From Prevotella sp. (GTDB lineage: Bacteria > Bacteroidota > Bacteroidia > Bacteroidales > Bacteroidaceae), in NCBI GenBank assembly GCA_017458195.1, contig JAFTGI010000012.1:1-61340 (forward strand): a stretch of DNA of 61,340 nucleotides. Reading direction: 5' to 3'. Made by a program: the position numbers and the translations under genes. A model generated the notes under the pieces. The model did no database searches. It saw only the letters and a list, made by a program, of their open reading frames with translations, and had not been told where the DNA came from. Each line of letters starts with the position of its first letter. The first letter of the stretch is position 1. Positions 14,292 through 60,800 of this stretch are shown piece after piece.

Positions 14292-14320
14292 AAAAGCGAG
14301 CCACCGGTGGGCTCGCTTTT
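14292..14320 (-). terminator. Terminator of the cohesin-like gene
   Basis: An 11-bp stem (14292-14302 with 14310-14320, GC-rich core GCGAGCC/GGCTCGC) followed on the minus strand by TTTTT. It lies 25 bp after the stop of the cohesin-like gene. Confidence 0.8.
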
Positions 14321-14344: not shown

Positions 14345-15433
14345 TCAGAAGCGGATCTTCTTCACCTCGCCGTTGGCCATCTTGACAACGTTGATGCCCT
14401 TCTGAGGAGCAGCAACACGCTGACCGCCGACGGTGAAGTACTCAGCACCTGCGACAGAAGCCTTGGCGGCGTCGATGCCAGTGGCAACGGCGTTGCTCAC
14501 CGAAATCTTAATCTCGTCGTCGAGAGCATAGCCGCGGGCACCAACCTTCGTGCCAACGAGGAACTTGTCAATCAGGATTTCAGCCGACTCGGGCATGTCA
14601 GCAGCAGCCTTCACGTTGAAGCTGAACACGACGCCCTCCTCAGGCAGCAGCTCGTTGGTCATCGACGACAGGGTGAAGTAGTAGATGCCCTGGTCAGCCT
14701 GACCCTCACCAATCCACATGTTGAAGATGCCAGCCAGATCCTCGGGCAGGTCGAACAGCAGTCCGTCCTCGTTCTCGACAATCTGCAGGCACTCCGGCAG
14801 GTTGACATAGCACTCCATGGAAGCCAGCGAAGCAGTGTTGCTGATGCTGACCTCGACGGTGAACGTCTCGCCCGGGTTAACCTTCTGCTCAGCATTTTCG
14901 GTGTAGAACATCACGTCGCCATCGAGACGGTAAGCCACGGTGACCTTCGACTCGGTGTCCTCCTGATAGATCTCAGGATAGCCGGTAGCCTGCTTGGTGA
15001 TGACCACGTCGGTCAGCTTGATCGTCGAGTCAACGAGCTTCTCGTTGGCCTTCACGGTGAACGTAGCCACGGCTGAGGTGCCCTCGATGTTCTTAACCTT
15101 TGCCTTACTCGTAGAAAGAAGCATCATACGATAGGCACCAAGGTCGGAGCGATAGATGCCCTGAAGCGAATGGTACTTCGTCAGACGCTCAGTAGCCGTG
15201 AAATAGTCACCATCCTCGTTGACCACCATTTCCAGACCCTCGGGGAGCTGGATGTTGAGCACGATGCTAAGGATGTTGGGGTCATCAGCATTGTCGAGGT
15301 TAATACCCACGACAGCCTCTTCGCCAGCAGCGAGCGTGATATCATCGAGATAGACCTTCGTCTCGGCATTAGCTGCGACAGCTCCCATGAAGAGAAGCAG
15401 CAGGGCAGCCAGTTTTGAAGTAATTGTCTTCAT
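14345..15433 (-). CDS. Secreted protein with two cohesin-like domains and a KGIN...KK sorting-like tail
   Basis: 362 aa with a clear signal peptide (MKTITSKLAALLLLFMGAVAANA). Two tandem beta-sandwich domains follow, about 24-165 and 170-310, each with cohesin-like landmarks: an early VGINLDNAD / VEVSISNTA strand, a ..LPEGLEMV / NLPECLQIV block, and hydrophobic strands ending ATFTVKA / FSFNVKA. The last ~45 residues (GIDAAKASVAGAEYFTVGGQRV...KGINVVKMANGEVKKIRF) are a tail that also ends the giant coiled-coil protein next door and the LRR protein at 58 kb. It follows the giant gene by 108 bp on the same strand, so the two are probably cotranscribed. The cohesin assignment rests on fold-like pattern only; dockerin binding is an inference from the neighbour. 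Confidence 0.75.
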   Translation of the reverse strand: MKTITSKLAALLLLFMGAVAANAETKVYLDDITLAAGEEAVVGINLDNADDPNILSIVLNIQLPEGLEMVVNEDGDYFTATERLTKYHSLQGIYRSDLGAYRMMLLSTSKAKVKNIEGTSAVATFTVKANEKLVDSTIKLTDVVITKQATGYPEIYQEDTESKVTVAYRLDGDVMFYTENAEQKVNPGETFTVEVSISNTASLASMECYVNLPECLQIVENEDGLLFDLPEDLAGIFNMWIGEGQADQGIYYFTLSSMTNELLPEEGVVFSFNVKAAADMPESAEILIDKFLVGTKVGARGYALDDEIKISVSNAVATGIDAAKASVAGAEYFTVGGQRVAAPQKGINVVKMANGEVKKIRF

Positions 15434-15482
15434 AGAAAAATCTTTCTGTTTGTTGATTCGTTGGATTTTCTTGTTTTAGGGA

Positions 15483-15510
15483 GTGTGCGCGGCGCGGGGG
15501 CCACGCACAC
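15483..15510 (-). other. Hairpin between the giant gene and the cohesin-like gene
   Basis: GTGTGCG (15483-15489) pairs with CGCACAC (15504-15510) around a GC-rich loop, 31 bp after the giant gene's stop. There is no T-run on the minus strand, so it may be a processing or attenuation element rather than a full terminator. Confidence 0.45.
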
Positions 15511-15541
15511 ATTCCTTTCACATATCGTCAGAAGTGGATAC

Positions 15542-18500
15542 TTACTTCACCACAACCTTCTTGGTCTGACCATCGTTGCCCTTGATGATGTTGATGCCCT
15601 TCTTGACGGCATTCATCACGCGGCCACCCATGTTGTAGACCTTATCCATCAGGCTGTCGCTCTCAACAGCGTTGATGCCAGTTGCCTCGGCAGCGCCGAC
15701 GGTGAACTGAGTGAGCTGAGCGTTGGTCTCAGCGAAGAACACGTTCTGGAACTCAATCTGATCCAGCGAACCGGCACCTTCGATGTCGATGTAGACCACA
15801 GCGCCGTTGTTGCCGGCGAGCTCTGCATTATGGTCGTTGGCGACCACGATGCGGGTCATGCCGTCGAACTCACCAGTGTAGATGGCGTGGTTCTCAGCGC
15901 GCTGGCCAGCGGTCTTGGCGACGATGTTCATGCCCTCGGGCAGGATGACATCCATCTGCATGCCAGTGTAGGCACGACCGTTGGTGAGGTTCAGGGCCAG
16001 ACGGACGGTGCCGTCGGCATTCTGAGCGGCCTCAACGTAGACCTTCTCCTCAACATTCTGAGCGGCGCGGGCCTTGAGCACACCATCCACGTTGCCATAG
16101 AGCACGAGGTTGGCCACAGCCGTAGCGTCGGCAATGTTGATGGTGCCGTCGCCGTTGACATCAGCCTCAACGAAGCCGTCCTCACCGGGTTCGGGCTTTT
16201 CTTTAGCGGTGATGATGTCGAGCACGGTGTAGTAGTCAGCCATCGTAATGCGACCGTCGTGGTTGGCATCACCGGCCTTGTTGGTGTTGACCTTCGTCTT
16301 GAGAGCGTCGATGCGCTCAATCAGCTCGGCCACCTTAGCCTTGATGTCGCTGACGAGCTCGGCAGCGTTGCCGTTCGTCTTAGCGGTGCTGTTGTCCTTA
16401 TTGAGGCTCTCAATCGATTTGCCGATTTCCGTAATCTCATCCTGGATTTCTTTCCAGACCGAACCTGCGTAGTCCTTCTCAGAGAGGCTGGTGCGCACCT
16501 CGTCGAGGGCGTCGGCAGCGGTCTTGATGGAAGCCTCCGACTCAGCAAAAGCAGCGTTGTTGACGAGCTCAGCCACATTGTCCTTAATGGCCTTCACTTC
16601 GTCGCTCAACTGGCTTTCAGCGGTCAGCTTGCCGTCCGTGTGATCCTTCTCAACCTTCGTGCGCTCGGTGCTGATCTTCTTATCGTAGCCGTTGAGCGTA
16701 GCGTCCTTGTTGAAGGTATCGTAGTCAGCGACGGTCTCGCGAGCGTCCTCGACGGCCTTCGACAGTTCGTCGAGCTCAGCAATCAGGCGATCGTAAGCGT
16801 CGTTGTTGGCGTCGAATGCCTTCTGGGCGTCCTTGACTTCGTTGACGAGGTCCTCGACTTCCTTGGCCACCTCAGCAATCTCCTTCTCGATCTTCTCCTT
16901 ATAGAAGTCAGCATTGTCGAGGTCGTTGACGGTCTCGTCAAGATCCTTGACAGCCTCGGTGACTTCGTCGATCTCGTCCTTGAACTGCTCCTTGACCTCG
17001 TCGCTGATGCCCTCGAGTTCAGCCAGCTTGTCGAACAGGTCGGCAACCTTGTTGTTCAGGTCTTCCTGAGCAGCTTCGTCGGCACCCTCTTTGAGCTTGG
17101 AGTTGAGCTCGGCCAGAGCCTTCTCAGCAGCCTTGACGGCCTCGCGGTCCTCGTCGGTGTTAGCGGCCGTAGCCTTGTTGGCCTCGGCACGAGCCTGCTC
17201 GATGAGAGCACGCATCTCGGCAGCCTCCTCAGCCTTGTCGGGATTCGACGAAGCGAAGCGGTTGTACTCTTCCTGCAGCTCCTCGAGTTTGCCCTTGATG
17301 ATGTCGCGCTCCTCGCGGATAGACTCAGTGACCTTGCTGTCGATTTCCGTGACGAGGTCTTCCTTGTCAGCAAGTTCCATGTCGGCAATCTTGTCGCGGA
17401 TAGCCTCGAGGTCAGCGATATCGTCGTCGCCGTCGAGGAATTCCTTCAGATCCTCAATAGCCTCGTCGATCTTCTTGTTGAGCTCGTCCTTGGCGTCGGC
17501 CAGATCCTTGGCGTCCTTCTGAGCCTTCTCGTAGTCCTCAACAATCTTGTTGGCACCAGTGGTGAACTCCTCAAGGTACTTCAGGATCTGGGCACGTGCA
17601 CCGGGCAGCGTCTCCTTCTTGTAGCGCTGGTTCTCCAGGTTCTCAGCCTTCTTGACGGTATTGTCATAGAGGGTGTTGAGCTCATCGAGAGCCTCGCCGG
17701 TAAGCTTAGCCTTAGCCTCCTCGTAGAGGTCCTTGGCAGCCTGTACGCGCGGATCAATATCCTTCTTGGCAGCCTCGTTCTTGTCTTTCTTCAGCATGTT
17801 GTCGATGTCAGCCAGCTCAGTCAGCTTGTCGCCAAGCTGGTTAATCTCGGCAGCGGTAGAACCACCCACGAGATCATCGCACTCGTCGATCAGGGTCTCA
17901 ACGTCGCTGAAGGCACCCTCCTTGGCTTCCTCGCTGTAGTCTTCGATGACCTTCTTAGCATCATCAAGCTTCTTCTCGAAGTCGGCCTTCAGGTCTGCCC
18001 AGTACTTCTCGACGATAGCCTTCACGTCATTGTGCAGGTCGTCGACCTTACCGTTGATCTCGGCGGTCAGCTCGTTGGCCTTAATCTCGAATTCCGACGA
18101 GAGCTTGTTGGGGCTCACGATTTCGGCGAAGGCCTTGCCCTCAGCCAGCTTCAGATCCTCAATCTGCTGACGATAGGTATCCTTATTGTCGGCAACGTTT
18201 CCGAACTCGTCGATCATGTAGAACATGTCGTGGTATTCCAGAACGACCTCCTCAATCTGCTTGAGCAGATCCTCGTTCTTCACCGTGCGATAGGAGTCGA
18301 TTTCCTCGACGGCCTTCTTGTAAGCCTCGTTGAGGGCAGCAAGAGCCGACTGGAAGGCATCGTCCATGGCCTTGTTCTCCTTGGCGATTTCCTCGTCGTA
18401 GCCTTCGGTGATGTTGTTCAGCTTGTTGATGAGCTCATTGATCTTAGCCTGCAGCTCGTCGACCTTGGCGTTCGACTGGCCTTCCTCCTGCGAGAGCATG

Positions 18501-21500
18501 CCGTTCTCGTAAGCCTCGTTAAGGTCCTTAGCGAGCTGGTTAATCTCGGTCTGGATGTCGTCGAGTTTCTCGAGCCATGCTTCCTTCGTCTCCGACTCAG
18601 GATTGCCGTTGATCTCGGTGAACTTCTCGTTCCAGAGATCCTGAACGTCATACTTACCGTAGCTGACAACCTCGCCGCTCTCGTCGTCAACACCATTGAG
18701 CAGCTTGTCGTAGTTTTCGACGTTGCTCTTGACATCACCGATGAGCTTGTCGAGGTTGACGGTGACGTCGTCGATGTTCTGCTTGGCGTTGTCGTATTCG
18801 TCCTTATCGAAATCGAACGGATCGAGCAGCTTGATGCTCTCGCCAGCGGAATCGAGCAGACCCTTGTTGTCGGCAACCTTACCCTTGAAGAAGTCAACGG
18901 CGCCGAGGTAGGGCTTGTCGGCCTCCTCAATCTCACCGTCGAAGTCGGCGATGCGAGCATTCAGCTCGTCGAGAGCCTTCTGCAGCTCGTTGATCAGGTC
19001 GAGGTTAGCCTGAGCCTGGTCAGCAGCACCGGCGATGCTGTCAATCTTGTTCCAGATGTCAGTGATCTTACCCTTCTCAACTTCCTCGTTATCAGCGAGT
19101 TCTTCCTTATCATAGAGGTCATTGATCTCTTTCTCGAGAGCCTCGATGTCGCCCCTAGTGTCGGTCATATCCTGAGCGAAGTGCTCGGTGATGGCGCTGT
19201 CGTACTTCTCGGGATCATTGAGATCCTTATTCACCTCGTTGTAGTGCTCCTTCAGTTCGTCGAGCGACAGGTTGGCCAGAGCCTCGTTGTTCTTCTGAAC
19301 CTTCTCCTTAGCGTCCTTGACAGCCTGGAGCAGGTCGTCAATCTGTCCGCCGAGTTCAATCAGGGCATTGTTAATCAACGTCAGCTCCGAGAAGGCCCTC
19401 ATGTCGTTCGTTTCCAGATTCTTCTCACGGGGCTCGTACTCCTTGAAATAATTGAACTTGTCGTAGAGCGTGGCATCCTTGGCGTCCGAGGCAGTAGCCT
19501 CGTTGTTCTCACCCAAGGCAGCGATGATATCGCCGAGTTGCTTCTTCAGGTCTTCATAGGAAGCACCCAGAGCGTCCTTTGCATTAGGATCGTTCAGTTC
19601 CTCACCAGCTTCGGCGAGTTTCTTTTCGAACACTTCTAAGCGATCCAGAATCTCATTGGACAGGGCGATACGTCCCTCGTGATACTGGTCGGCATCATAC
19701 TGAGCCTGGTCTGCCTTAGCCTTGTCGATGAGCTCGTCGATAGCCTCCTCGAGGTTGTCGAGGGCGGTCTTGCCGTCAGTGGCGTCGGGAGCATTGTATC
19801 CGGCCATGTCGTCATAGTGCTGCTTGCCTTCCTCCTTGAGGATGTTGGCGATATCGTCCTTGGCACCCTGCAGGTCGCCGGCCAGCTTGTCGGCATCGGT
19901 CTGATAGTCGGTCTTGTCGATGGTCAGACCGTCGATGACGCCCTGGAGCTCAGCCATCTTGTCGTCGAGCTGAGCCAGCTTGGCCTCAACCTCGTTGTAG
20001 TTGTCGAGGGCAGCATCCGACTGAGCGTCGAACTCTTCGATAGCAGCGCGGAGCTCTCTGTCGTTGTAGCTGGCGAGGAACTCAGCGGCCTTGCCTTTCT
20101 CGTTAGCCTCCTCGGCTGCTTTCTCAAGGTCGTCGATCTGATCCTGCAGGTCTTTGATGAGGTTGGTGTAGCGACCAGGCACCTCCACCTTGTCGACCTC
20201 GTAGAGCTTGGCGTTGTCATCCTCGTCATAGAGTTCGTTGACAGCCTTGTCGAGCATGCTCTGCAGGTCTTCAATCTTAGCGACGACTTCGTCGTTGGCA
20301 GCCTTATTCTCGTCGGCGGCCTTCTGAGCAGCCTCAACCTTGCCTACGAGTGCGTCGATAGCCTCCTGAATCTTGCCAGCCTTCTCCTCGACGCTGTAGT
20401 TCTTGTCGGTCTCAGGATCTGTGATGGCATTCTTAATCTCCTCATTGAGGGCGTCGATGTCGTCCTGGATGGCCTGCTTGTCGGCCTCGAGGTCAGCCTT
20501 GTTGATGAACTCATCCTTCAGCTCGACGGCGTCGAGGTTCTCCTGCAGCTTGGCAGCAGCGTCGATGGCGTCCTTCAGGGCGTTCACCTTGTCCACGATA
20601 GCCTTGGGATTGAGCTCGCTGAGCACGTTGAGCAGCGAGTCCTTCTTCACGACTGCGCCAGTCTCGTCAGCCACATACTCCTGGTTGGCATAGAACTCCT
20701 CGTTCTTGTCGTTGACCTTGACAACCTCCTGCGAGCCGTTGGCCAGCTCCTTCTGAGCTTCCTTCAGCAGGTCGGCGTAAGCCTCGGGGGCGTCGTCAGC
20801 GAGCAGGTCCTTCTGCAGCTGGTCGGTCACCTTGTTGTATTCAGCCTTGGTCTCCTCGACCTTCTGCTTCACCTCCTGGTATGCGTCATAGTTGGTGTTG
20901 ACGGCGTTGATCTCGTCAACCACGTTCTGAATCTCCTTAAGGATGTCGTCCTTGCTGGGATCGGGCTCAAACTCGGTAGCCGTGCCGTCCTCGAAAGCCT
21001 TGTCGGCAGCCTCCTTGAAGTCATTGACGAGCTTCTCGACAGCATTGATGTCCTTATCGATGTCGCTCTTGATCTCCTCGTCGGGGTCGTTGACGGTCAT
21101 ACCCTTCAGCTCGTCGAGGGCATCCTTCAGCTCCTGGGCATCAGCCTGGTTGGCATCATTGGCCACGATGTTGTCGCTCTGTGCCTTCAGGGCGTTGAAA
21201 GCGGCGCGGGCCTTTTCAAGGATTTCGTTCAGCTTGATGATGTACTCATTCTCATTGTCAGGCTTTGAGATGGCCAGATACTCCTCGTCTGTGCACTCGT
21301 CCTTTTCTCTAATGGGATCGAGGTCCTGGTCGATGGCACCGACCTCCACCTTCGAGTCCTTGAGCAGCTGCTCGAGAGCGGCCAGCTGATCTGCATCCAC
21401 GCGGGAATCGAAATCGGAAAGCTGATTGAGCATGTCCTCCAGTTCGAGCACGCCTGCATTAAGCTTGTTGTGGATGCCGTTGAGGACATCCTTAAAGTCT

Positions 21501-21661
21501 GACTTGTCGGCCTGCACCTGATAAACATCCTGCACAGCGGCAGCGGTCATTTCACCTTGCACCTGGGTTCCCTGTGCGGGAAGGGCCACGGCTGCTGCAT
21601 TAGCGTTAGCGGCGGGCACTGCTGACAGGGCAAGTAAAGAGTAAACTACTTTTTTAGCCAT
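15542..21661 (-). CDS. Giant secreted coiled-coil protein with C-terminal dockerin, cohesin-like domain and sorting-like tail
   Basis: 2039 aa from the ATG at 21661, which begins a signal peptide (MAKKVVYSLLALSAVPAANA). Residues about 45-1780 are almost wholly charged, Ala/Leu-rich helix, with long stretches of coiled-coil heptads very rich in Asp/Glu/Lys/Asn and almost lacking Trp and Cys; I recognise no enzyme domain there. About 1795-1860 is a type I dockerin with two calcium loops (GDANHDGRITMAD and DVNGDGTINIAD). About 1870-1995 is a cohesin-like beta-sandwich (VRLALNLTNGRAYTGMQMDV, ILPEGMNIVAKTAG). The tail is GINAVESDS...KGINIIKGNDGQTKKVVVK. It is probably an exported, calcium-binding fibre or spacer on the cell surface, perhaps carried out by type IX secretion. 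The downstream gene encodes two more cohesin-like domains. No comparable named protein comes to mind; the role is unknown. Confidence 0.85.
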   Translation of the reverse strand: MAKKVVYSLLALSAVPAANANAAAVALPAQGTQVQGEMTAAAVQDVYQVQADKSDFKDVLNGIHNKLNAGVLELEDMLNQLSDFDSRVDADQLAALEQLLKDSKVEVGAIDQDLDPIREKDECTDEEYLAISKPDNENEYIIKLNEILEKARAAFNALKAQSDNIVANDANQADAQELKDALDELKGMTVNDPDEEIKSDIDKDINAVEKLVNDFKEAADKAFEDGTATEFEPDPSKDDILKEIQNVVDEINAVNTNYDAYQEVKQKVEETKAEYNKVTDQLQKDLLADDAPEAYADLLKEAQKELANGSQEVVKVNDKNEEFYANQEYVADETGAVVKKDSLLNVLSELNPKAIVDKVNALKDAIDAAAKLQENLDAVELKDEFINKADLEADKQAIQDDIDALNEEIKNAITDPETDKNYSVEEKAGKIQEAIDALVGKVEAAQKAADENKAANDEVVAKIEDLQSMLDKAVNELYDEDDNAKLYEVDKVEVPGRYTNLIKDLQDQIDDLEKAAEEANEKGKAAEFLASYNDRELRAAIEEFDAQSDAALDNYNEVEAKLAQLDDKMAELQGVIDGLTIDKTDYQTDADKLAGDLQGAKDDIANILKEEGKQHYDDMAGYNAPDATDGKTALDNLEEAIDELIDKAKADQAQYDADQYHEGRIALSNEILDRLEVFEKKLAEAGEELNDPNAKDALGASYEDLKKQLGDIIAALGENNEATASDAKDATLYDKFNYFKEYEPREKNLETNDMRAFSELTLINNALIELGGQIDDLLQAVKDAKEKVQKNNEALANLSLDELKEHYNEVNKDLNDPEKYDSAITEHFAQDMTDTRGDIEALEKEINDLYDKEELADNEEVEKGKITDIWNKIDSIAGAADQAQANLDLINELQKALDELNARIADFDGEIEEADKPYLGAVDFFKGKVADNKGLLDSAGESIKLLDPFDFDKDEYDNAKQNIDDVTVNLDKLIGDVKSNVENYDKLLNGVDDESGEVVSYGKYDVQDLWNEKFTEINGNPESETKEAWLEKLDDIQTEINQLAKDLNEAYENGMLSQEEGQSNAKVDELQAKINELINKLNNITEGYDEEIAKENKAMDDAFQSALAALNEAYKKAVEEIDSYRTVKNEDLLKQIEEVVLEYHDMFYMIDEFGNVADNKDTYRQQIEDLKLAEGKAFAEIVSPNKLSSEFEIKANELTAEINGKVDDLHNDVKAIVEKYWADLKADFEKKLDDAKKVIEDYSEEAKEGAFSDVETLIDECDDLVGGSTAAEINQLGDKLTELADIDNMLKKDKNEAAKKDIDPRVQAAKDLYEEAKAKLTGEALDELNTLYDNTVKKAENLENQRYKKETLPGARAQILKYLEEFTTGANKIVEDYEKAQKDAKDLADAKDELNKKIDEAIEDLKEFLDGDDDIADLEAIRDKIADMELADKEDLVTEIDSKVTESIREERDIIKGKLEELQEEYNRFASSNPDKAEEAAEMRALIEQARAEANKATAANTDEDREAVKAAEKALAELNSKLKEGADEAAQEDLNNKVADLFDKLAELEGISDEVKEQFKDEIDEVTEAVKDLDETVNDLDNADFYKEKIEKEIAEVAKEVEDLVNEVKDAQKAFDANNDAYDRLIAELDELSKAVEDARETVADYDTFNKDATLNGYDKKISTERTKVEKDHTDGKLTAESQLSDEVKAIKDNVAELVNNAAFAESEASIKTAADALDEVRTSLSEKDYAGSVWKEIQDEITEIGKSIESLNKDNSTAKTNGNAAELVSDIKAKVAELIERIDALKTKVNTNKAGDANHDGRITMADYYTVLDIITAKEKPEPGEDGFVEADVNGDGTINIADATAVANLVLYGNVDGVLKARAAQNVEEKVYVEAAQNADGTVRLALNLTNGRAYTGMQMDVILPEGMNIVAKTAGQRAENHAIYTGEFDGMTRIVVANDHNAELAGNNGAVVYIDIEGAGSLDQIEFQNVFFAETNAQLTQFTVGAAEATGINAVESDSLMDKVYNMGGRVMNAVKKGINIIKGNDGQTKKVVVK

Positions 21662-50065: not shown

Positions 50066-53000
50066 TTATTGTCTGCCGATCACCTTTTTCTTCACTGCGC
50101 CATCGGCCGAGCGGTAGAGATAGACCCCTCGGCTTTGCTGACGGCGCACGCTCTGTCCCTTCATGTTGTAGACTTCGCGCTCGCCGGCCGTGGGCGTGGT
50201 GATGGTGTTGATGCCCGACGATTCCGGCTGCAGGCTTGAACCGTCGCCGACGACGAAGGAGAGGCGGGCCACCGACGAATTGTTGAGCACATCCCACGCG
50301 CGATAGAGCAGCACGTGCTCGCCGGGCGTCAGCGCCGGAATCTGATAGCCGACGCTGCCACGGCGATAGTCGCCGAAGACATATTCGAAATAGGAGTTCA
50401 GGTTGTAGGTCATGGCGGCCTTGCCGTCGATGATCAGTTCCATGTTGTGGCCAATGCCCGATCCGGAGACGTTGATGCCGTCGGGGTCGTAAACCTCTGC
50501 GTAGAAGTAGGGCGACTCGCTCACCATGTCGCCATCCTGGAACAGCGCGTTGTTCAGATAGCAATAAATCTCGGGGCCGCCCTCGGTTGCCAGGGGCTCG
50601 TCGCCGCTGCCCATCGAGAAATTGCCGAAGCTGCCATGGGCCATGAGCGACTTGTCATCGTTGACGGCGTAGACATACATCAAGGCGCTGTCGTCGCTGT
50701 AGGTGATGTCCTTCGGCACGGCGAAGGTAAACTTAAACTGGCCGTCGGTCACGCTGTCGGCACCGTTGTAGAGAACAGTCGGGCGCTGCCACCAGCTGAA
50801 GGGGGACCACTTGTTCGCTTCGGCTGTCTCGCCGTTGTTGTTGAGGCCGGTGACGTATTCCTCGACGTCGCAGACCGTGAGCATGGCCTTGCCCGAGAAG
50901 CCGGGCTGGTCGTCGACGTGTCCCTCGACGGTGACGATTTCGCCGGCCTTGAAGCGCTGTGTCCCGAGGCTGACGTCAAGACCGTTGACGCGGTCGATGG
51001 TGAGGGGCATCGTGGGGGTGTTCAGGCGCAGAGCCGGGTCACCCAAGAGCGTGTACTGGCGGTGGTTGGGCTTGTTGGTTTCGAGCGTGCCGTTGGTGCG
51101 CTTCTCGTAGTAATAGGAAATCTTGGCCTGCCGCAGGGCTTCGCCGATGGGATAGCTGACGGGGTAAGTCTTCTGCAGACCGAGCAGATTGCGCATGAAC
51201 AGCTTGTTGAGCACGCGGTTGAGCTGGGCATAGACCGTATGGACGGTGCTGACGACGGCGATGGCTCCGCCGTGCTTGTTGAACAGGGCGGTCTCGCCGA
51301 TGTTGAGCCCTTGCGTGTTGTAGGGCATGATGTCGCAGGCAGCCAGGAACCACAGGGGCAGTCCGCCCGGCGTCTCGGTGGCAAAGTCCTCACGGGTGAG
51401 CACCCACTCGTGCGACAGACCGGCAGCATTGCCATGGCCAGTGTAGTTCATGATGAGGGCGCCGTCGTGCATCTGGCTGAGGCAGAGCTGGCGCGCTGCG
51501 GGAACCGAACGGCCGTTGGAGGAGGCCTCCGCGGGATAGCCGTCCCAGTAGATCTTGTTCAGTCTGAAGGGGGTGGCCCCGATTTTCAGCGAGTCGAGCA
51601 CCGCCTCGGCATCCTGCATGTGGAGGTTGGCGTTGCCGTCGTCGGCCATGAAGCAGACCGTGTTCTGCCAATCGCCGGCATCCTCGTTCAGACGGTAGCG
51701 GATGGTCTTGTCAACCACGGTCTGGGCTTCCTCGACGGTGCGGGCCGGCAGTCGGCCAACGGCAGCATCACTGAGGTTGTTGATCATGTCGCCGCCCTCG
51801 TTGTCGTCGAGCATGCAGAAATAGTCGTCCGAACAGTAGCTCTCAGTCTCGCTCATCGAGTTTTCCGACTCGTAGCTCAGCAGGAAATCGTCGGGCGAAT
51901 AGTTCTTCCAGTCGCTGAGCACCATGCGGTTGTCCCATGCGCAGTCGCCAAAGAGGATCAGGTAGCGGGGCTCATCCTCCTCGCGCTCGGCCCGGTCGTA
52001 GAGCATCTTCATGTAGCGGCGGTAGGCGTTGGCATCAGGCGTGCCGCTCGAGAACTCATTGTAGAGCTCGTCAGCCACGACGATGTTGACGCGCATGCCG
52101 TCGTATTCGCGGTGCAGCTGGGCCAGCCGCTCGGCCTCGCCCAGGAAGATGCGGTTCGTGGGCACGATGATGACGAGGTCGGCCTGCTCATGGGCGTGCA
52201 GATCCTGATTGGCCACCCCCCCGACCACTTCGGGCTGTGGCAGCGGCGACGTGGCCAGGTCGGCCAGCGGGCGCGGCTCAAGGCATCGCAGCGAGATATA
52301 GTCGAGGCGCATGTTGTGGCCCCAGATTTCGCGCAGGGTCACGGTGGTGGTGTCGGTCAGGATGTTGTCGACACGGAAGGTCCACGTGTCGACCACGGCC
52401 TTGCTGTAGCGGTTGGTGTCGACCTTGTTGACGCCCGGCTGTCCGCCCTTGGGACGGGTGGTGACGTTGTCGATGAGGATATGGCCCACCTCCTCGCCGT
52501 TGACGAGCACCTGCATGTCGCTGTAGTAGTCGTAGCTCATGACGACGGTCAGCAGGCCCGACTTGCCCACGGCGGGCAGCTGATAGCTGCGCTCGGTGTC
52601 CGTGACGAAGAGTTCTGCGTCGAAGAGGTTCCGGCCGCCCTGGAACCAGCTGTAGTTGTCGACCTCGTAGAGCTGATGATAGTCGTTGGGCAGCGGATAG
52701 TAGGTCTCGACGAAGCGCAGCGAATCGTAGACCACAGCCTCGTCGTCGTTCTCGCTGAGGAAGTAGTAGCCGTAGTCGGAATAGTTGTTACGCTCGCGCA
52801 CTTCAGAGATCTCGTTGGCCCAGTTCACCGGTCCGACGCCATAGAAGATGCGCCGCCCGCCGATGATGGCCGTGGGCAACTGCTTCAGGTCGTCGTTGTC
52901 GGCAACATAGGAGGCCGACAGCCTTTCGGGCTGGCGTGCACCGCCGTAGCCGTAGATCTTCACTTGCGAGGGGTCGTCGAAACCGGCCTGCTGCAACAGG

Positions 53001-53227
53001 CTGTCGGTCAGCTCGTAGAATCCTGACTCGGGAATGCGGATCTTCACCCAATGGCCATCGGCAAGGGCCGAGTGCCTGACGTAGCGCTGGTCAGCGCTGA
53101 TGGCGTGCTTAGGCCCTGCCTCGTAGTGCGGGCCGGCGGCCACGAGGTTGACGAACTCATGTGCTGAAGCTTGCTTAAGACCTGCCATGACGAGCAGCAG
53201 GAGCATCGTGAAACGGATTCTGGTCAT
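50066..53227 (-). CDS. PorU paralogue: C25 (gingipain-type) cysteine peptidase without the N-terminal domain
   Basis: 1053 aa, signal peptide MTRIRFTMLLLLVMAGLKQASA. From about residue 45 it follows PorU throughout (VKIRIPESGFYELTDSLLQQ, VKIYGYGGARQPE, RRIFYGVGPVNWANEI, FSSGTPDANAYRRYMKMLYD). The catalytic dyad is kept: H598 in MNYTGHGNA and C631 in LAACDIMPY, 33 residues apart, the same spacing as in the upstream PorU. It lacks the ~130-residue N-terminal region of PorU. Its end differs: GINTITT...EVYNMKGQSV...RGVYLYRSADGAVKKKVIGRQ, a tail like that of secreted proteins in this window. It may be a second sortase with other cargo, or a secreted peptidase. It lies between porU and porV. Confidence 0.85.
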   Translation of the reverse strand: MTRIRFTMLLLLVMAGLKQASAHEFVNLVAAGPHYEAGPKHAISADQRYVRHSALADGHWVKIRIPESGFYELTDSLLQQAGFDDPSQVKIYGYGGARQPERLSASYVADNDDLKQLPTAIIGGRRIFYGVGPVNWANEISEVRERNNYSDYGYYFLSENDDEAVVYDSLRFVETYYPLPNDYHQLYEVDNYSWFQGGRNLFDAELFVTDTERSYQLPAVGKSGLLTVVMSYDYYSDMQVLVNGEEVGHILIDNVTTRPKGGQPGVNKVDTNRYSKAVVDTWTFRVDNILTDTTTVTLREIWGHNMRLDYISLRCLEPRPLADLATSPLPQPEVVGGVANQDLHAHEQADLVIIVPTNRIFLGEAERLAQLHREYDGMRVNIVVADELYNEFSSGTPDANAYRRYMKMLYDRAEREEDEPRYLILFGDCAWDNRMVLSDWKNYSPDDFLLSYESENSMSETESYCSDDYFCMLDDNEGGDMINNLSDAAVGRLPARTVEEAQTVVDKTIRYRLNEDAGDWQNTVCFMADDGNANLHMQDAEAVLDSLKIGATPFRLNKIYWDGYPAEASSNGRSVPAARQLCLSQMHDGALIMNYTGHGNAAGLSHEWVLTREDFATETPGGLPLWFLAACDIMPYNTQGLNIGETALFNKHGGAIAVVSTVHTVYAQLNRVLNKLFMRNLLGLQKTYPVSYPIGEALRQAKISYYYEKRTNGTLETNKPNHRQYTLLGDPALRLNTPTMPLTIDRVNGLDVSLGTQRFKAGEIVTVEGHVDDQPGFSGKAMLTVCDVEEYVTGLNNNGETAEANKWSPFSWWQRPTVLYNGADSVTDGQFKFTFAVPKDITYSDDSALMYVYAVNDDKSLMAHGSFGNFSMGSGDEPLATEGGPEIYCYLNNALFQDGDMVSESPYFYAEVYDPDGINVSGSGIGHNMELIIDGKAAMTYNLNSYFEYVFGDYRRGSVGYQIPALTPGEHVLLYRAWDVLNNSSVARLSFVVGDGSSLQPESSGINTITTPTAGEREVYNMKGQSVRRQQSRGVYLYRSADGAVKKKVIGRQ

Positions 53228-53248: not shown

Positions 53249-56200
53249 TTAGTTTTTATTCAGGATTATCAGTTTGCGGGCCTGCGAGGCCTTCTTGCTG
53301 CCGTCGGTGCTGATGAGCACGCGGTAGAGATAGACGCCCGTGGAGAGCCGGTTGCCGCCATCGACGGTCAGGTCCCAGTTGATGGTGTAGGTGTTGTCGG
53401 TGGCCAGGCCGCTCTCGGCATGGTGCCACAGCTGGCGCCCCGACATGTCGAAGATTTCGAGCTCGACGTCCATCTCGCTGCCCGTGCGGTCGTGGCTGAT
53501 GACGAACGAAGTGGACGTGGTGGCCGGATTGCGGGTGCAGAAGACATCGAAGCACTGCGGATTGAGCCCCCTGACCACCTGGAACTTCAGCTGGGCTATC
53601 GACGAGTTGTTGAACACGTCCCAGGCGCGGAACTCCAGCGAGTGGTCGCCTTCGCTGAGCTCGGGCAGGCTGAAGCCAACGGTGCCGCTGGTGTAGTCGC
53701 CGAAGTTATAGTTGAAGTAATCGTTCAGGTTATAGGTCAGCTGCATCTGCCCGTCGACGACGAGCTGCAGGTCGTGGCCCACGCCGCCGCCCGAGGCGTT
53801 GACGCCGTCGCGGTCGGTAATCTCGGCGAAGAAATAGGGCGTGGTGTTCACCTTGCCTCCATTCGTGAACGACGGGCTGTTCAGGTAGCAGTAGATCGAG
53901 GGGCCGATGCCGTCGCTGGCGATGTCGCTGCTCTTGCCGAAGACGAAGCGCCCGTTCTCGCCGTGGGCCATGGTCTTGCGGTCGTTGGTGTAGGCAAAGA
54001 GGGTCAGCAGACCGTTGTCCTGGCTGTAGCTGATGTCGCGCGGCAGGACGAAGCGGATGTTGAACTGTCCGCCGACGATGCTGTCGCTGCCCTGATAGAT
54101 GGTGCTCGAGCGGTCGTCGAACTCGTAGGGCGTGTCGTCGCTGCTCGAATCGGTCTGGTTGACCTTGCAGACGATGTGTTCCATCACGTCGCGCACGGTC
54201 AGGTTGGCAACGCCCGTAAAGCCGGCATCACCCTCCACGTGGCCTTTCACCGAGATCTCCGTCCCGGCGGCCAGCTCGACGACGCCGCTTGCCGGCGAGA
54301 CGCCGCTGATGCTGTCGACGACCATGGTCTTAGTGGGGGTGACCAGCGTCATGGCCGGGTCGCCGAGGAGCGTGTAGTGCAGTTTATTGTAGGAATAGGG
54401 ATCGCTCTCCACCTGGATGGCATTCTTGGTCAGCCGCACGGCGTCGCCCAGGGTGGCCCGACGGCCGTTGATGGTGCTGAGGACGTTCTTGACGTAGCCC
54501 ACGTTGACCTCCATGTTGTGGTTGGTCCAGACGGTGCGGGTGGTGCCGAAGAAGGCGACGCATCCGCCCGTGGGGTTGAGCATGGCCGTCTCGCCGATGT
54601 TGTCCTCGCGCCCGTCGTAGGGCATGATGTCGCACGAGGCCGTGATCCAGAGCGGCAGCCGGTTCTGGCTGCTGATGTCGAAGTCAGTGCGCATGACGAC
54701 CTTCTCGTGCGACAGGCAGTAGGCGGCGCCGTGGCCGCAGTAGTCCATGATGAGGGCGCCGTTGCGCATCTGCTGGCGAATCAGGTTGGTCACGTCGGGA
54801 TAGGTCTTGCCCTTGGCCGTGGCGACGATATTGTAGGCATCCCAGAAGATGCGCTTCACGATGTAGCCCGGATACTGCTGTTCGACGGCCTGTGCGGCGG
54901 CGTTGGCCTCGCGCATGTGGACGTTGTTGTTGCCGTCGTCGCCCATGAAGCAAAGCACGTTCTGCCAGTTGCCGGCCTGGTCGTTCCTGACGTAGTTCAG
55001 GATCTTGTCGACCATGATCTTGGCGTCGGCAGCATCGACAGCCGGCAACCGCCCCACGCCGATGTCGGTCTTGTCGTAGGTCTGTAGCGAGCCGCCCTCG
55101 CCGTCGTCGAGGATGCAGTAGTAGTCGTCGGAGACGTAGCTGCGGGTCTCGCTCAGCGAGTTCTCGCTCTCATAGCAGAGCAGATAGTCGTCGGGCGACG
55201 ATGAGCGCCAGTCGCTGCTCAGCATGCGGTTGTCCCAGGCGCCGTCGCCGAAGAGCAGCAGATAGTGCGGGGCGTCGTCGGCCGTCTCGGCCCGGTCGTA
55301 GAGCATCTTCATGTAGCGGCGGTAGGCCGTGGCGTCGGGCGTGCCGCTCGAGAATTCGTTGTAGAGCTCATCGGCCGGCACGATGCGCACGGTCATGCTG
55401 TCCTCCGTCTCGTGCAGCGCCTTCAGCCGCTCGGCCTGGGCCAGCTGCTTCTGGTTGGTGGGAATGATGATGACGAGGTCGACCGACGTGTCGGCATGAT
55501 GGTCCTGATTGGTGATGCGATAGACGTAGCGGGGTGCGCTGAACGAGGTGGCCATCAGCGACGGCAGCGGGGCCGGCGTCGGTTCGGTCAGGGCGATATA
55601 GTCGAGGTGGATGTCTGACGTGCCCGACGTCTGTCGCAGCACGACGGTGTTCTGGGCCTGCAGGTTGTTCACCTTGTAGGTGACGGTCTTCAGGAAGGCC
55701 TCCTCATACTTGGCATTGCTGTTGTTCTCGTCGCCGGCTTTCAGCGTGTTGCTGATTGTGCCGCACACGGAGTCGTTCAGTGTCACCGACACCTCGCAGG
55801 GGTTGTTCATCGTGATGTTCACCGTCAGCTGGCCGCTCGTGCCGTGGGCAGCGAGGGTGTAGCGGTTGTCGGCATCGCTCCGCCAGGCCGTCTCATAGAG
55901 GTTGCGGCCGCTGTGATACCAGGCGAAGTCGTCGACCTCGTGGAGCGAGTGATAGTCGCTGGTCGAGGGATAGAATGAGCTGACGAACTCGGCACTGTCC
56001 ACCCGCAGCGGCTCGTCGTCGCTCTCGGTGAGGAAATAGTAGCCCACGTCGCTGTAGGGATTGCGCGTGCGGGCCGTCGTGGTGTTACTGTCCCACGTCA
56101 CCGGGCCCACGCCGTAGAACAGCCGCCGGCCGCCCACCGTGCACGTGGCCACCTCCCGCAGGTCGTCGGTCGCCTGCAGGTAGTCGCCACGCATCACCTC

Positions 56201-56785
56201 GGGCTGGAGGGCTCCGCCGTAGCCATAGATCTTGACCTTCTGGGGATTGGAGAAGCCGCACTGGCGCACCAGCGCATCGGTAATCTGATAGATGCCGGTC
56301 TCGGGAATGCTGATCTTAGCCCACTGCCCGGTGGCCAGCACCGAATGCGCCTTATAGCGCTCGCCGGTCTCCGCCGTGGCCCGGGTGCGGCTGCCAGCGG
56401 CCTTCCGGGCCTCGACGCGAAGCATAAAGCTGACGAGCTTCTGGTAGCGGCCGCCACGCTGCACTAAGGGCACAAACGAGACGTAGAGCGTGCCCTCCTT
56501 GCGCGACGTGCCCACATAGCTCAGCACCTCGGGCATTTCGGGCAGCGCCGCCACGCCCAGCTCGCCCAGGCGGGCCACGTCGGCGGGATGCATGTCAATA
56601 AATTCGGGATAATCGATGCTCACCGTATAGACCGAGTCAGCATAGGCCGACCCCAGCTCCACCGAATAGCAGAACCGCGGCAGCACCGAGTCGATCTTGA
56701 CCTCGTCGGCTGTCAGGTTGAAGAAGCCCTGACCGGACGCACGGAGCGTCAGCAGGAGCATCACCATGAATAGTCTTATGCGCAT
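53249..56785 (-). CDS. porU: Type IX secretion system sortase PorU
   Basis: 1178 aa with a signal peptide (MRIRLFMVMLLLTLRASGQ). Residues about 20-135 form an N-terminal domain as in gingipain propeptides; the C25 catalytic domain spans about 420-830 with H685 (MDYCGHGAA) and C718 (TASCDIMPYDG), 33 residues apart as in the P. gingivalis enzyme. Beta-sandwich domains follow (FFAEITDRDGVNASGGGVGH, LEFRAWDVFNNSSIAQLKFQ) and a type IX-like C-terminal domain (VELEIFDMSGRQLWH, LSTGVYLYRVLI). PorU cleaves the CTD signal of cargo and attaches it to anionic LPS. The row porU - paralogue - porV - ispF is on one strand with short gaps (21 and 31 bp). Confidence 0.93.
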   Translation of the reverse strand: MRIRLFMVMLLLTLRASGQGFFNLTADEVKIDSVLPRFCYSVELGSAYADSVYTVSIDYPEFIDMHPADVARLGELGVAALPEMPEVLSYVGTSRKEGTLYVSFVPLVQRGGRYQKLVSFMLRVEARKAAGSRTRATAETGERYKAHSVLATGQWAKISIPETGIYQITDALVRQCGFSNPQKVKIYGYGGALQPEVMRGDYLQATDDLREVATCTVGGRRLFYGVGPVTWDSNTTTARTRNPYSDVGYYFLTESDDEPLRVDSAEFVSSFYPSTSDYHSLHEVDDFAWYHSGRNLYETAWRSDADNRYTLAAHGTSGQLTVNITMNNPCEVSVTLNDSVCGTISNTLKAGDENNSNAKYEEAFLKTVTYKVNNLQAQNTVVLRQTSGTSDIHLDYIALTEPTPAPLPSLMATSFSAPRYVYRITNQDHHADTSVDLVIIIPTNQKQLAQAERLKALHETEDSMTVRIVPADELYNEFSSGTPDATAYRRYMKMLYDRAETADDAPHYLLLFGDGAWDNRMLSSDWRSSSPDDYLLCYESENSLSETRSYVSDDYYCILDDGEGGSLQTYDKTDIGVGRLPAVDAADAKIMVDKILNYVRNDQAGNWQNVLCFMGDDGNNNVHMREANAAAQAVEQQYPGYIVKRIFWDAYNIVATAKGKTYPDVTNLIRQQMRNGALIMDYCGHGAAYCLSHEKVVMRTDFDISSQNRLPLWITASCDIMPYDGREDNIGETAMLNPTGGCVAFFGTTRTVWTNHNMEVNVGYVKNVLSTINGRRATLGDAVRLTKNAIQVESDPYSYNKLHYTLLGDPAMTLVTPTKTMVVDSISGVSPASGVVELAAGTEISVKGHVEGDAGFTGVANLTVRDVMEHIVCKVNQTDSSSDDTPYEFDDRSSTIYQGSDSIVGGQFNIRFVLPRDISYSQDNGLLTLFAYTNDRKTMAHGENGRFVFGKSSDIASDGIGPSIYCYLNSPSFTNGGKVNTTPYFFAEITDRDGVNASGGGVGHDLQLVVDGQMQLTYNLNDYFNYNFGDYTSGTVGFSLPELSEGDHSLEFRAWDVFNNSSIAQLKFQVVRGLNPQCFDVFCTRNPATTSTSFVISHDRTGSEMDVELEIFDMSGRQLWHHAESGLATDNTYTINWDLTVDGGNRLSTGVYLYRVLISTDGSKKASQARKLIILNKN

Positions 56786-57865: not shown

Positions 57866-60800
57866 TCATTTCATCATGACCTTCTTAACTGTGCCATCAT
57901 CACGAATTACAATGTTAATCCCTTTTTGCAGTTTATTGAGTTTTTTGCCATTAGGCGAGTAAATGCGTACATTATGCTCTGATGCCATGAAGACTTCTAT
58001 AATTCCTGACGTATAGCTTGCATATACTACGACATCATGAGCAGGCATCGTCTGAGGCAAATCCGTCCATTCGAAAGTGGCGTAGTCGCCCTCTGGTTGA
58101 GGCTCAGGCGTGATAGTGGCACCATATTCATACATGATTTCCTTATACACCTTATCATCTATCATGTAAGTCAGCTTATAGCTGTTTATGCTGAAAGTGC
58201 CTGTCACCGTCACATCGTGGTCCGGCATGGTCTCAGGAATCTCGCACCACCCGCTGAAGGTATATCCTTCTCTAGTGGGTTCTTCTTCGGCTGAGATAGA
58301 AGAACCTTGCTCTATGACATATTTCTTATATTCTTCCCCATCTACAAGATAAACAAGGTTATACATGCCTTCGAAGTTCTTTATGCTGCCAAAGAGGCTC
58401 CAAGGTACCGTCACACAATATTGGTCAAACAGGCTGTAAGGCACACGAAGCGTAGCACTTGGCAAATAAGAGTGCGTAAAGGCATATTCATCAGTTTCCG
58501 GCACTACTTCTGAGTATGAAACCACCTCCTTCAGGTTCCTGCAAGATGCAAATGCCGACTTGCCTACCTTGTTGACCTTACTCCCAATTACCAAAGAGTC
58601 AAGGTAGTCCAAGCCGCTGAAGGGTGATAGCGGCTCTGGATAGACGATGTTCCTTCCTAAGTACACCTTCTTCAGCTCGCAGTTCATGAAGTTGTTATCA
58701 ATACTCAGTGTTTCCTGGCCATCCTCAATAACAAAAGACCTGAGTCCTCTACACATGTCGAATGCGTCTTTCCCTATCTCGTTAACATTATTGGGAATGC
58801 TTATAGATTGTAAGCCATCACAACCATAGAAAGATTGAGAACCTATCTTTTGTATACTTGATGGAAAAACAATAGAAGTCAACCCCTTGTGACCAACGAA
58901 CAGCCCATCGGTAATTTCTAAAACACAATTTCCAAATTTCACTGTAGATAGACGCTCTCTATTTCCTCTAAATGGTGAATTTTGGGAAAAAGAAACATTT
59001 CTACCTAAGTATATACTATCTAAAGGACAAGCGTAAAATGTATATCCTTCACAACAGTCCAAATTGTCTGTTCCATCTTCAAATTCCACATAGTGAAGAT
59101 TGGAGCATTGTTGAAAGGCTTTGGTCTCTATTTTCTTAATGTTTTTGGGAATTATTATAGAGTAAATATAACCCCTTACGTTATCAAGAAGATTACTCTC
59201 AATTATTGATTTCTTCGTGCTAATTCTAATTAGAGTTGGGTTGAATCCAGCAACATTCCCATAGCTTATGTTAATTCTTCTTCCTAGATAGATATCAATT
59301 ATGGGACAATTATGAAATGCAGGATATTGTGTTGGAGATTTACTAATGACCAAATCGTCATCGCCTTCTTCAATAATAAGACTTTGAAGGTTTGTGCAAT
59401 ATGCAAAAGCCCAACCTTCTATTCTTTTCATCCCTGATGGTATTGTTATCGACTTTAAACTGCTACAGCCATAGAACACTCGTCCGCCTAATGATGAAAC
59501 GCCATTTGGGATTGATATGGATTGCAAACTACTACAATTGTTAAATGCCCATTCTTCGATTTTGACGACTCCGGCAGGTATGACAATTTCCTCTAACGCT
59601 GTACACCCATCAAAAAGCCCCCATGAAATTATAGACAAACTATCAGGAAGTCCTATTCTTCGTAAACTTATGCAACCCTGAAATGCGCTACTACCAATGG
59701 AGTTTATACTGTTTGGAAGAATAATACTTTTTAAACCTTTGCAGCCAGAGAAAGCAGAACTCACAATTATAGTTGAACCTTCACGAATTTCAAGATTTAT
59801 TTCATTCTCAATTGAGTGGTCTCCTTTATATGCATATACGATAGGACCGAAATAGATAATACCATCAGGTTGATTGTTGTACCAAAGCGTGTTAAAGAAT
59901 GCAAGGCTTCCCACTTCTTTTATTGTGCTGGGTAGACTAAGTGATTCTAACTGCACGCAGTCCATAAACGCTTGATTATTTATCACTTCAACACCTTCTG
60001 ATATTATCATTTTTTTTAATTGTGAACATCCTTGAAAGGCACTGCTACCAATACTTCCAATACTGCCAGGAATAATAACATTGTCTAAAGATGTGCAATC
60101 TAAGAACATCCCTTCTGCTATTTCTGATATTCCTTCTGAAAGAGATAGTGTTATCAAAGAATTACATCCATAAAAAGCATGTGTTTCACTTCTTCTTACA
60201 TGTTCCCCTAGCACCACTTCCTTTAAGGATTCCATTTTTTGAAACACGGGCACTATAGTATCCATATCAATGACAAGTTTTTCAATTTCACAACGGGCAA
60301 ATGGATTATACCCTCCCCCAGGGCCGCATTCTATTGCTTTGATGTTATTAGGGATTATTATAGACTTTAAACCGCTCCCTACAAATGCACTTTGTTTTAT
60401 GCTTGTAACGTCTAATGGAATGGTCGTTCCTGAACATCCATATTCAAGTTGATTGGCAGAAGTGTTTATAATTGCATTGCAGTTCTCTCTAGAATCATAT
60501 ACAAGATTACCTTCTGTAACACGCATTTCAGCAAGCGTGCTACAATTAATAAAACAGCATTCTCCGATGGAAGTTACACTTGATGGAATATTTATTTTGG
60601 GTAACATTATACATCCATTAAAGCAGTAATCTCCTATAGATCTTACGTTTGATGGTATATTTATTTCTGACAACATTCTACATCCACTAAAGCAGTTTTT
60701 TCCAATGGAAGTTACGCTTGATGGGATGTTTACATAAATACAATCACACCCGGCAAATGTGTTATCATTAAGTGTGTCAATACCATCTGGAATTGTCAAT

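Follow-up and report, generated by a model that had tools for sequence, protein, structure and literature searches.

The stretch of DNA analysed here (61,340 nucleotides of contig JAFTGI010000012.1 from Prevotella sp., hereafter the window) carries on its minus strand two neighbouring genes, gene A, whose product joins a long rod to a dockerin and a predicted cohesin-fold domain, and gene B, whose product bears two cohesins (Table 1). Cohesins and dockerins are known chiefly as enzyme scaffolds. The rod gene and the cohesin gene, frequently accompanied by a gene encoding a LytTR-domain protein, form a gene set that is conserved in Bacteroidales. With a confidence that stops somewhat short of even, we read this set as a type IX-exported, non-cellulosomal cohesin-dockerin assembly of the cell surface, in which the dockerin of gene A is predicted to be received by the cohesins of gene B.

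Conservation of the rod and cohesin genes

The dockerin-cohesin C-terminus of gene A, a query containing nothing of gene B, was run over a genome collection; the scan gave at least 590 pattern matches, and the best 80 of 168 relatives were kept, corresponding to 79 loci. Dockerin-cohesin genes were called rod-type at a helix-composition score of at least 0.30 before the dockerin, a threshold set after the scores were known; genes without a rod and with a scored N-terminal part stay at or below 0.11. Fourteen loci are rod-type by this measure (L116 to L124, L127, L130, L134, L153 and L176), with Paraprevotella xylaniphila (L127), Xylanibacter rodentium (L130) and Prevotella sp. P3-122 (L153) as named hosts; L118 and L119 are close kin, as are L122 and L123, and the counts of loci refer to related sequences, not to independent events. 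All 14 rod-type genes A encode dockerin and cohesin on one chain, and the gene lying 3' on the same strand begins in each case with an N-terminal cohesin, at a spacing of 97 to 198 bases (344 in L176, where gene A is broken). This next gene opens with two cohesins in 13 of the 14 loci and with a single one in L124. The co-occurrence of the two genes in other genomes, on which the first-pass annotation of this DNA had staked its proposal, was thus checked and found in every named rod-type locus of other Bacteroidales.

The frequency with which a cohesin gene follows differs between types of dockerin gene. Among the 171 dockerin frames of these loci, once 14 without downstream room and six with another domain order are left out, a cohesin gene comes next after 22 of 37 dockerin-then-cohesin genes (14/14 rod-type, 8/23 others), as against 2 of 114 dockerin-only genes. 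At an E-value of 1e-5, the C-terminus of gene A finds a match in 50 of 151 family genomes, many of these matches concerning the dockerin or the tail only, and a rod-type gene A is present in six genomes from four genera (G000, G108, G069, G087, G010 and, in broken form, G052) among the stretches examined. The copy in the metagenome-assembled genome G052 (L176, 7740-10418) has an in-frame stop in the cohesin-to-tail part and may be a pseudogene or the product of misassembly. The same dockerin-cohesin ending is found in other genomes on LRR_5, GLUG or CotH proteins (six scanned), which argues for a reused module having the rod as one of its carriers. Other arrangements were also encountered: L124 (1-17767) is a five-gene run mixing cohesins and dockerins in varied orders, with the rod on its first gene, and four loci from Bacteroidales metagenome-assembled genomes (L152, L155, L156 and L174) contain six or seven dockerin-only genes in a row, among which proteins of about 460, 790 and 855 amino acids (aa) recur and no cohesin gene is present in the stretch examined.

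When ten loci were compared, the genes of the window other than the pair were common to L116 only, the LytTR gene excepted. Profile search places a LytTR gene upstream of gene A, in the same orientation, in 9 of the 12 named rod-type loci with room for it (L116, L118, L119, L120, L122, L123, L130, L134 and L153), L124 and L127 being left out of the count as their sequence ends too near gene A. Seven of these loci have it 150 to 540 bases from gene A, and the profile match is weaker in L118, L119, L122, L123 and L153. Among the 120 sequences searched, matches occur exclusively in rod-type loci. The 125-aa LytTR protein is probably the regulator of the gene set.

Domains of the two proteins

The dockerin of gene A scores 29.9 bits against PF00404 (cut-off 22.9) with two intact calcium-binding loops visible, and these loops are largely retained in the other relatives compared. 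The domain that follows after a short gap of about 14 residues, so that both lie at the C-terminal end, gives no Pfam Cohesin match even at E 1; it is nevertheless predicted to adopt the cohesin fold on the basis of an AlphaFold2 model examined with VIA-align and Foldseek. Among the matches listed, its closest solved folds are filled by cohesins, the closest three by VIA-align being 2xdh, 2vo8 and 2jh2. The domains of genes A and B share only about 7 to 16 percent identity with the solved cohesins listed, and the lists of structural matches also contain flocculins, pilins and integrin domains. For gene B, a cohesin is recognised by sequence (PF00963, 44.3 bits against a cut-off of 24.1), and the protein with its two cohesins most resembles the dyad of ScaA cohesins from Acetivibrio cellulolyticus. 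The predicted template modelling score (pTM) is 0.74 for the dockerin-cohesin-tail part of gene A and 0.52 for gene B.

Single-sequence searches returned no solved relative of gene A at E 0.001 and none of gene B at E 1, and a search for plasmid relatives of the gene A C-terminus gave no match. Neither protein has an enzyme domain that attains its cut-off in Pfam or NCBIfam, in agreement with the first-pass annotation, which had described a system without attached enzyme; its list of domains likewise stands, with a signal peptide, dockerin, cohesin-like domain and tail on gene A and two cohesins with a related tail on gene B, and the cohesin fold of the beta domains, which it had set as a test beforehand, is upheld by modelling. 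Neither product has a carbohydrate-binding module by Pfam; the gene B relative in L134 has one CBM_4_9.

The rod was examined separately (about residues 41 to 1782). Aspartate, glutamate, lysine and arginine make up 38 percent of its residues, and the hydrophobic residues display a lag-7 autocorrelation of 0.25 (z 10.9), a periodicity which together with the charge supports a helical rod. In 13 compared relatives the rods have a lower share of charged residues (24 to 38 percent), and the periodicity recurs (z 4.8 to 10.0). A profile of the roughly 100-residue repeat, trained without this gene A and without its closest relative L116, recovers 11 copies with 124.1 bits in total, against best scores in shuffled controls of 17.5 bits (7-residue blocks, 50 shuffles), 26.4 bits (14-residue blocks) and 33.7 bits (28-residue blocks); the 28-residue-block shuffles still yield up to 10 repeat matches, below the score of the real order. 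Across the family, 71 of 113 spacings between successive copies are below 140 (median 100), and other groups lie at about 170-210 and 290-345. The repeat profile thus leads us to read the rod as tandem units, possibly some 17 helical-bundle-like ones (1740 residues / 100), and not as a single continuous coil. The rod of about 1700 residues described at first as nearly continuous charged helix keeps its charge and its helical character under this analysis, and the continuous coiled coil gives way to tandem repeats. The nearest Pfam family to the repeat consensus is the Spectrin repeat, at 19.6 bits, below the cut-off of 29.9. A kinship of the rod with SMC/Rad50 was rejected, the NCBIfam matches lying far below their cut-offs and being of the kind that charged helices produce; a Tox-REase-5 match (17.4 bits against a cut-off of 25) was set aside as the same effect.

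Table 1. Positions in the window of genes A and B, their parts and the adjoining features.
Feature	Position	Strand	Content or basis
Gene A, 2039 aa	15542-21661	minus	signal peptide (putative), helical-repeat rod, dockerin, cohesin-fold domain (predicted), tail; translation, Pfam, same-layout homologues
Putative signal peptide, gene A about aa 1-21	21599-21661	minus	probable; N-terminal sequence judged by eye
Rod, gene A aa 45-1790	16292-21529	minus	helical repeats of about 100 aa in tandem; autocorrelation, repeat profile
Type I dockerin, gene A aa 1796-1853	16103-16276	minus	PF00404 above cut-off; two calcium-loop motifs
Predicted cohesin-fold domain, gene A aa 1867-1992	15686-16063	minus	AlphaFold2 model, VIA-align, Foldseek, profile links to gene B cohesins
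C-terminal tail, gene A aa 1994-2039, end KKVVVK	15545-15682	minus	TAIL1 profile; ends of two solved enzymes alike
Gene B, 362 aa	14345-15433	minus	two cohesins and tail; translation, Pfam
Cohesin 1, gene B aa 25-168	14930-15361	minus	model and VIA-align; alone 18.4 bits, below cut-off (genome search)
Cohesin 2, gene B aa 169-312	14498-14929	minus	PF00963 above cut-off
C-terminal tail of gene B, end KKIRF	14348-14497	minus	TAIL1 profile
Terminator-like hairpin directly 3' of gene B	14292-14320	minus	pattern match only
LytTR-domain protein, 125 aa	21905-22282	minus	upstream of gene A; PF04397, 24.1 bits against a cut-off of 22.6

A pattern scan of the region found 18 terminator-like hairpins where 9.4 were expected, none of them between genes A and B on their strand.

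Probable export, proposed assembly and the rival explanations

Export of both products by the type IX system is likely, because they share a tail, the genome has genes for type IX machinery (SprA and PorU) and Paraprevotella clara offers a precedent. Gene A ends in KKVVVK, which fits the KXXXK given as tail signature in excerpts of PMC9477747; the KKIRF end of gene B does not. According to the same excerpts, the surface function of such proteins in P. clara requires PorU and lipopolysaccharide synthesis. Profile searches find the tail of genes A and B on numerous family proteins, and a profile built on the gene A C-terminus also matches the ends of the solved enzymes 8bbl and 4kca. The sprA gene is found in 111 of the 151 family genomes and in 48 of the 50 that match the gene A C-terminus; the two in which it was not found, G010 and G131, both have PorU. 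The window itself holds a duplicated type IX sortase, in the form of two adjacent PorU-type genes on the minus strand (50066-53227 and 53249-56785) with NCBIfam scores of 812.8 and 971.9 bits (against 420), the former of which carries the family tail. A BspA-type leucine-rich-repeat (LRR) protein encoded further along the window (57866-60676, minus) ends in the same tail as genes A and B.

How the pair might operate can be outlined in steps that we infer for export, anchoring, partners, calcium dependence, fold and length of the rod, and regulation. Sec and the type IX system would export the gene A product, which would display its long helical-repeat rod, with dockerin and cohesin at the cell-proximal C-terminal end; since the C-terminus, where these domains lie, is also the part by which type IX cargo is held, the rod should point outward. 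The gene B product, exported likewise, would present two cohesins at the surface. The likeliest contact would place the gene A dockerin in one of the gene B cohesins, this being the simplest contact that accounts for the fixed gene pair, and would tether rods at the surface or clip them together, leaving the cohesin of gene A free for a further dockerin. The whole set would probably be under the LytTR-type regulator.

Several observations weigh against this assembly or parts of it. The gene A and gene B tails have no match to NCBIfam TIGR04183 even at E 1, and gene B, ending in KKIRF, lacks the KXXXK signature. The rod-type relatives L127 and L079 have a degenerate first calcium loop. The LytTR gene lies about 1.1 kb from gene A in L118 and L119 and was not found by profile search in L117, L121 and L176. 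No cohesin gene comes next in 15 of the 23 dockerin-cohesin genes without a rod. In a co-evolution test correlating distance matrices between parts over 13 loci, the dockerin of gene A gave r of 0.38 and 0.54 with the gene B cohesins, against 0.64 with the rod and 0.55 with its own cohesin; correlation extends to every pair of parts (r 0.38 to 0.68), and the test is therefore silent on partners. Furthermore, the genome, which is 76 percent complete, contains 23 dockerin matches at E 0.01 including gene A (16 above cut-off), so that the gene B cohesins may serve other dockerins.

Eighteen other dockerin proteins were scanned, some weak dockerin matches lying outside this set; Pfam Dockerin_1 is found at E 1e-4 in 12 of them, and the other six were assigned by a custom profile. 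Eight carry LRR or DUF285 repeats, and subtilase, PI-PLC-X and endonuclease I occur once each; the remainder comprises two proteins with Big_2, one cohesin-dockerin protein and four with dockerin only or nothing. The L196 dockerin protein has an accessory chitobiase-type C-terminal domain. Two further pairs were observed in the same genome: at C209 (L113, 1618-4887), a 308-aa dockerin protein is followed by a gene that starts with two cohesins and is cut by the contig end, and at C40 (L093, 2946-7854), an LRR_5 protein with a cohesin-dockerin-cohesin-tail ending is followed by a 226-aa cohesin-dockerin protein.

This varied cargo, and the excess of dockerin matches over the six cohesin matches found at E 1 (two above cut-off), would suit a docking station, in which other dockerin proteins of the cell plug into the cohesins of both genes at the surface, the rod being a spacer or a separate adhesin. 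We regard this as unlikely, as the adjacency of genes A and B in all rod-type loci suggests a dedicated pair and further cohesin genes exist at C40 and C209. The dockerin and cohesin folds could alternatively be kept as building blocks of surface proteins without binding function, as the low identity to solved cohesins, the flocculins, pilins and integrin domains among the structural matches and the degenerate loop of L127 and L079 would allow; with both loops intact in this dockerin and largely kept in other relatives, and with a cohesin gene following dockerin-cohesin genes far more often than dockerin-only genes, we consider it quite improbable. A similarly low probability, if anything slightly lower, attaches to the head-to-tail filament put forward in the first-pass annotation, in which the dockerin of one gene A product binds the cohesin of the next to build a calcium-dependent fibre that gene B caps or cross-links. 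The presence of both domains on every rod-type chain and their combination in the five-gene run of L124 are compatible with it. However, with both domains some 14 residues apart at the C-terminal end, such a chain would join bases, with rods as side arms, and would not lengthen a fibre. This is an argument against the filament in its simple head-to-tail form, and the co-evolution test lends an A-to-A contact no specific support.

The X modules of clostridial X-dockerins are stabilisers of the dockerin, and the cohesin of gene A may pack on its own dockerin in a comparable manner, as a stabiliser or cap and not as a receptor. That the gene A module has a higher pTM than gene B hints at such packing, which would make the cohesin an X-module-like companion, and the short linker and the position of this cohesin below Pfam detection point the same way; yet pTM is only an indirect measure of contact, and the closest solved folds listed for the domain are cohesins, which does not by itself exclude others. 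We hold this to be highly unlikely. Returning to the contact between the gene A dockerin and a gene B cohesin, a more elaborate form of it, in our view rather less likely than not, would be a regulated type IX surface fibre in which rods of about 17 repeats are clipped by gene B cohesins into pairs or networks while free cohesins recruit leucine-rich-repeat adhesins. If true, cellulosome parts would here make up a fibre or matrix system.

Comparison with known cohesin-dockerin systems

The pair resembles the cellulosomes of Clostridia and Ruminococcus in its type I dockerin and cohesins above Pfam cut-offs and in its two-cohesin protein akin to the ScaA dyad. Unlike them, it belongs to a Bacteroidales host with type IX genes and places a helical-repeat rod where the enzyme would be. 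A cellulosome was set aside because a glycoside hydrolase (E 1e-4) is present on none of the 18 scanned dockerin proteins of this 76 percent complete genome; gene B being devoid of a carbohydrate-binding module as well, neither of the two cellulosomal features looked for, dockerin-bearing enzymes and a carbohydrate-binding module on the scaffold, was found.

In the same host group, dockerins have been assigned to rumen Bacteroidetes in PMC7480376, PMC6071333 and PMC4035507, and cohesins too in the latter two. Excerpts of these reports treat them as cellulosome or enzyme parts and mention no rod protein, gene pair or regulator, and PMC7480376 states that the role of dockerin modules in rumen Bacteroidetes polysaccharide loci is undefined. 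An excerpt of PMC5831590 describes its rumen bacterium as having no cohesins or dockerins, in line with other Bacteroidetes genomes.

The trypsin-binding proteins of Paraprevotella clara (excerpts of PMC9477747) are alike in their PorU-carrying hosts and in the KXXXK end, shared by gene A, and the hosts overlap (P. xylaniphila, and Prevotella rodentium, now Xylanibacter rodentium). Neither dockerin nor cohesin occurs as a word in the main text of that paper, and its two proteins, 00502 and 00509, are given as an Omp28-related protein and a hypothetical protein; compared by description only, genes A and B were rejected as counterparts of these trypsin-capture proteins. An Omp28-related protein with the family tail does occur elsewhere in the present genome (C65; L112, 1177-4083), by name of the same class as 00502.

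The cohesin fold outside cellulosomes is shared with the modules 2xdh of Archaeoglobus and 2vo8 and 2jh2 of Clostridium perfringens. While these are an archaeal module and glycoside hydrolase modules, the present case is a conserved set of rod, dockerin, cohesin and second cohesin gene, a layout that is not described in the titles or abstract beginnings among the matches listed from the open-licence PubMed Central literature. The conserved non-enzyme pair, which also occurs in isolates such as Paraprevotella xylaniphila and Xylanibacter rodentium, makes the role of Bacteroidetes dockerins testable with two recombinant proteins. The domains of genes A and B belong to the cohesin and dockerin families; what sets them apart is the layout of rod and gene pair in place of an enzyme scaffold, and the pair would give Gram-negative bacteria of the gut a further surface architecture, one that clips together.

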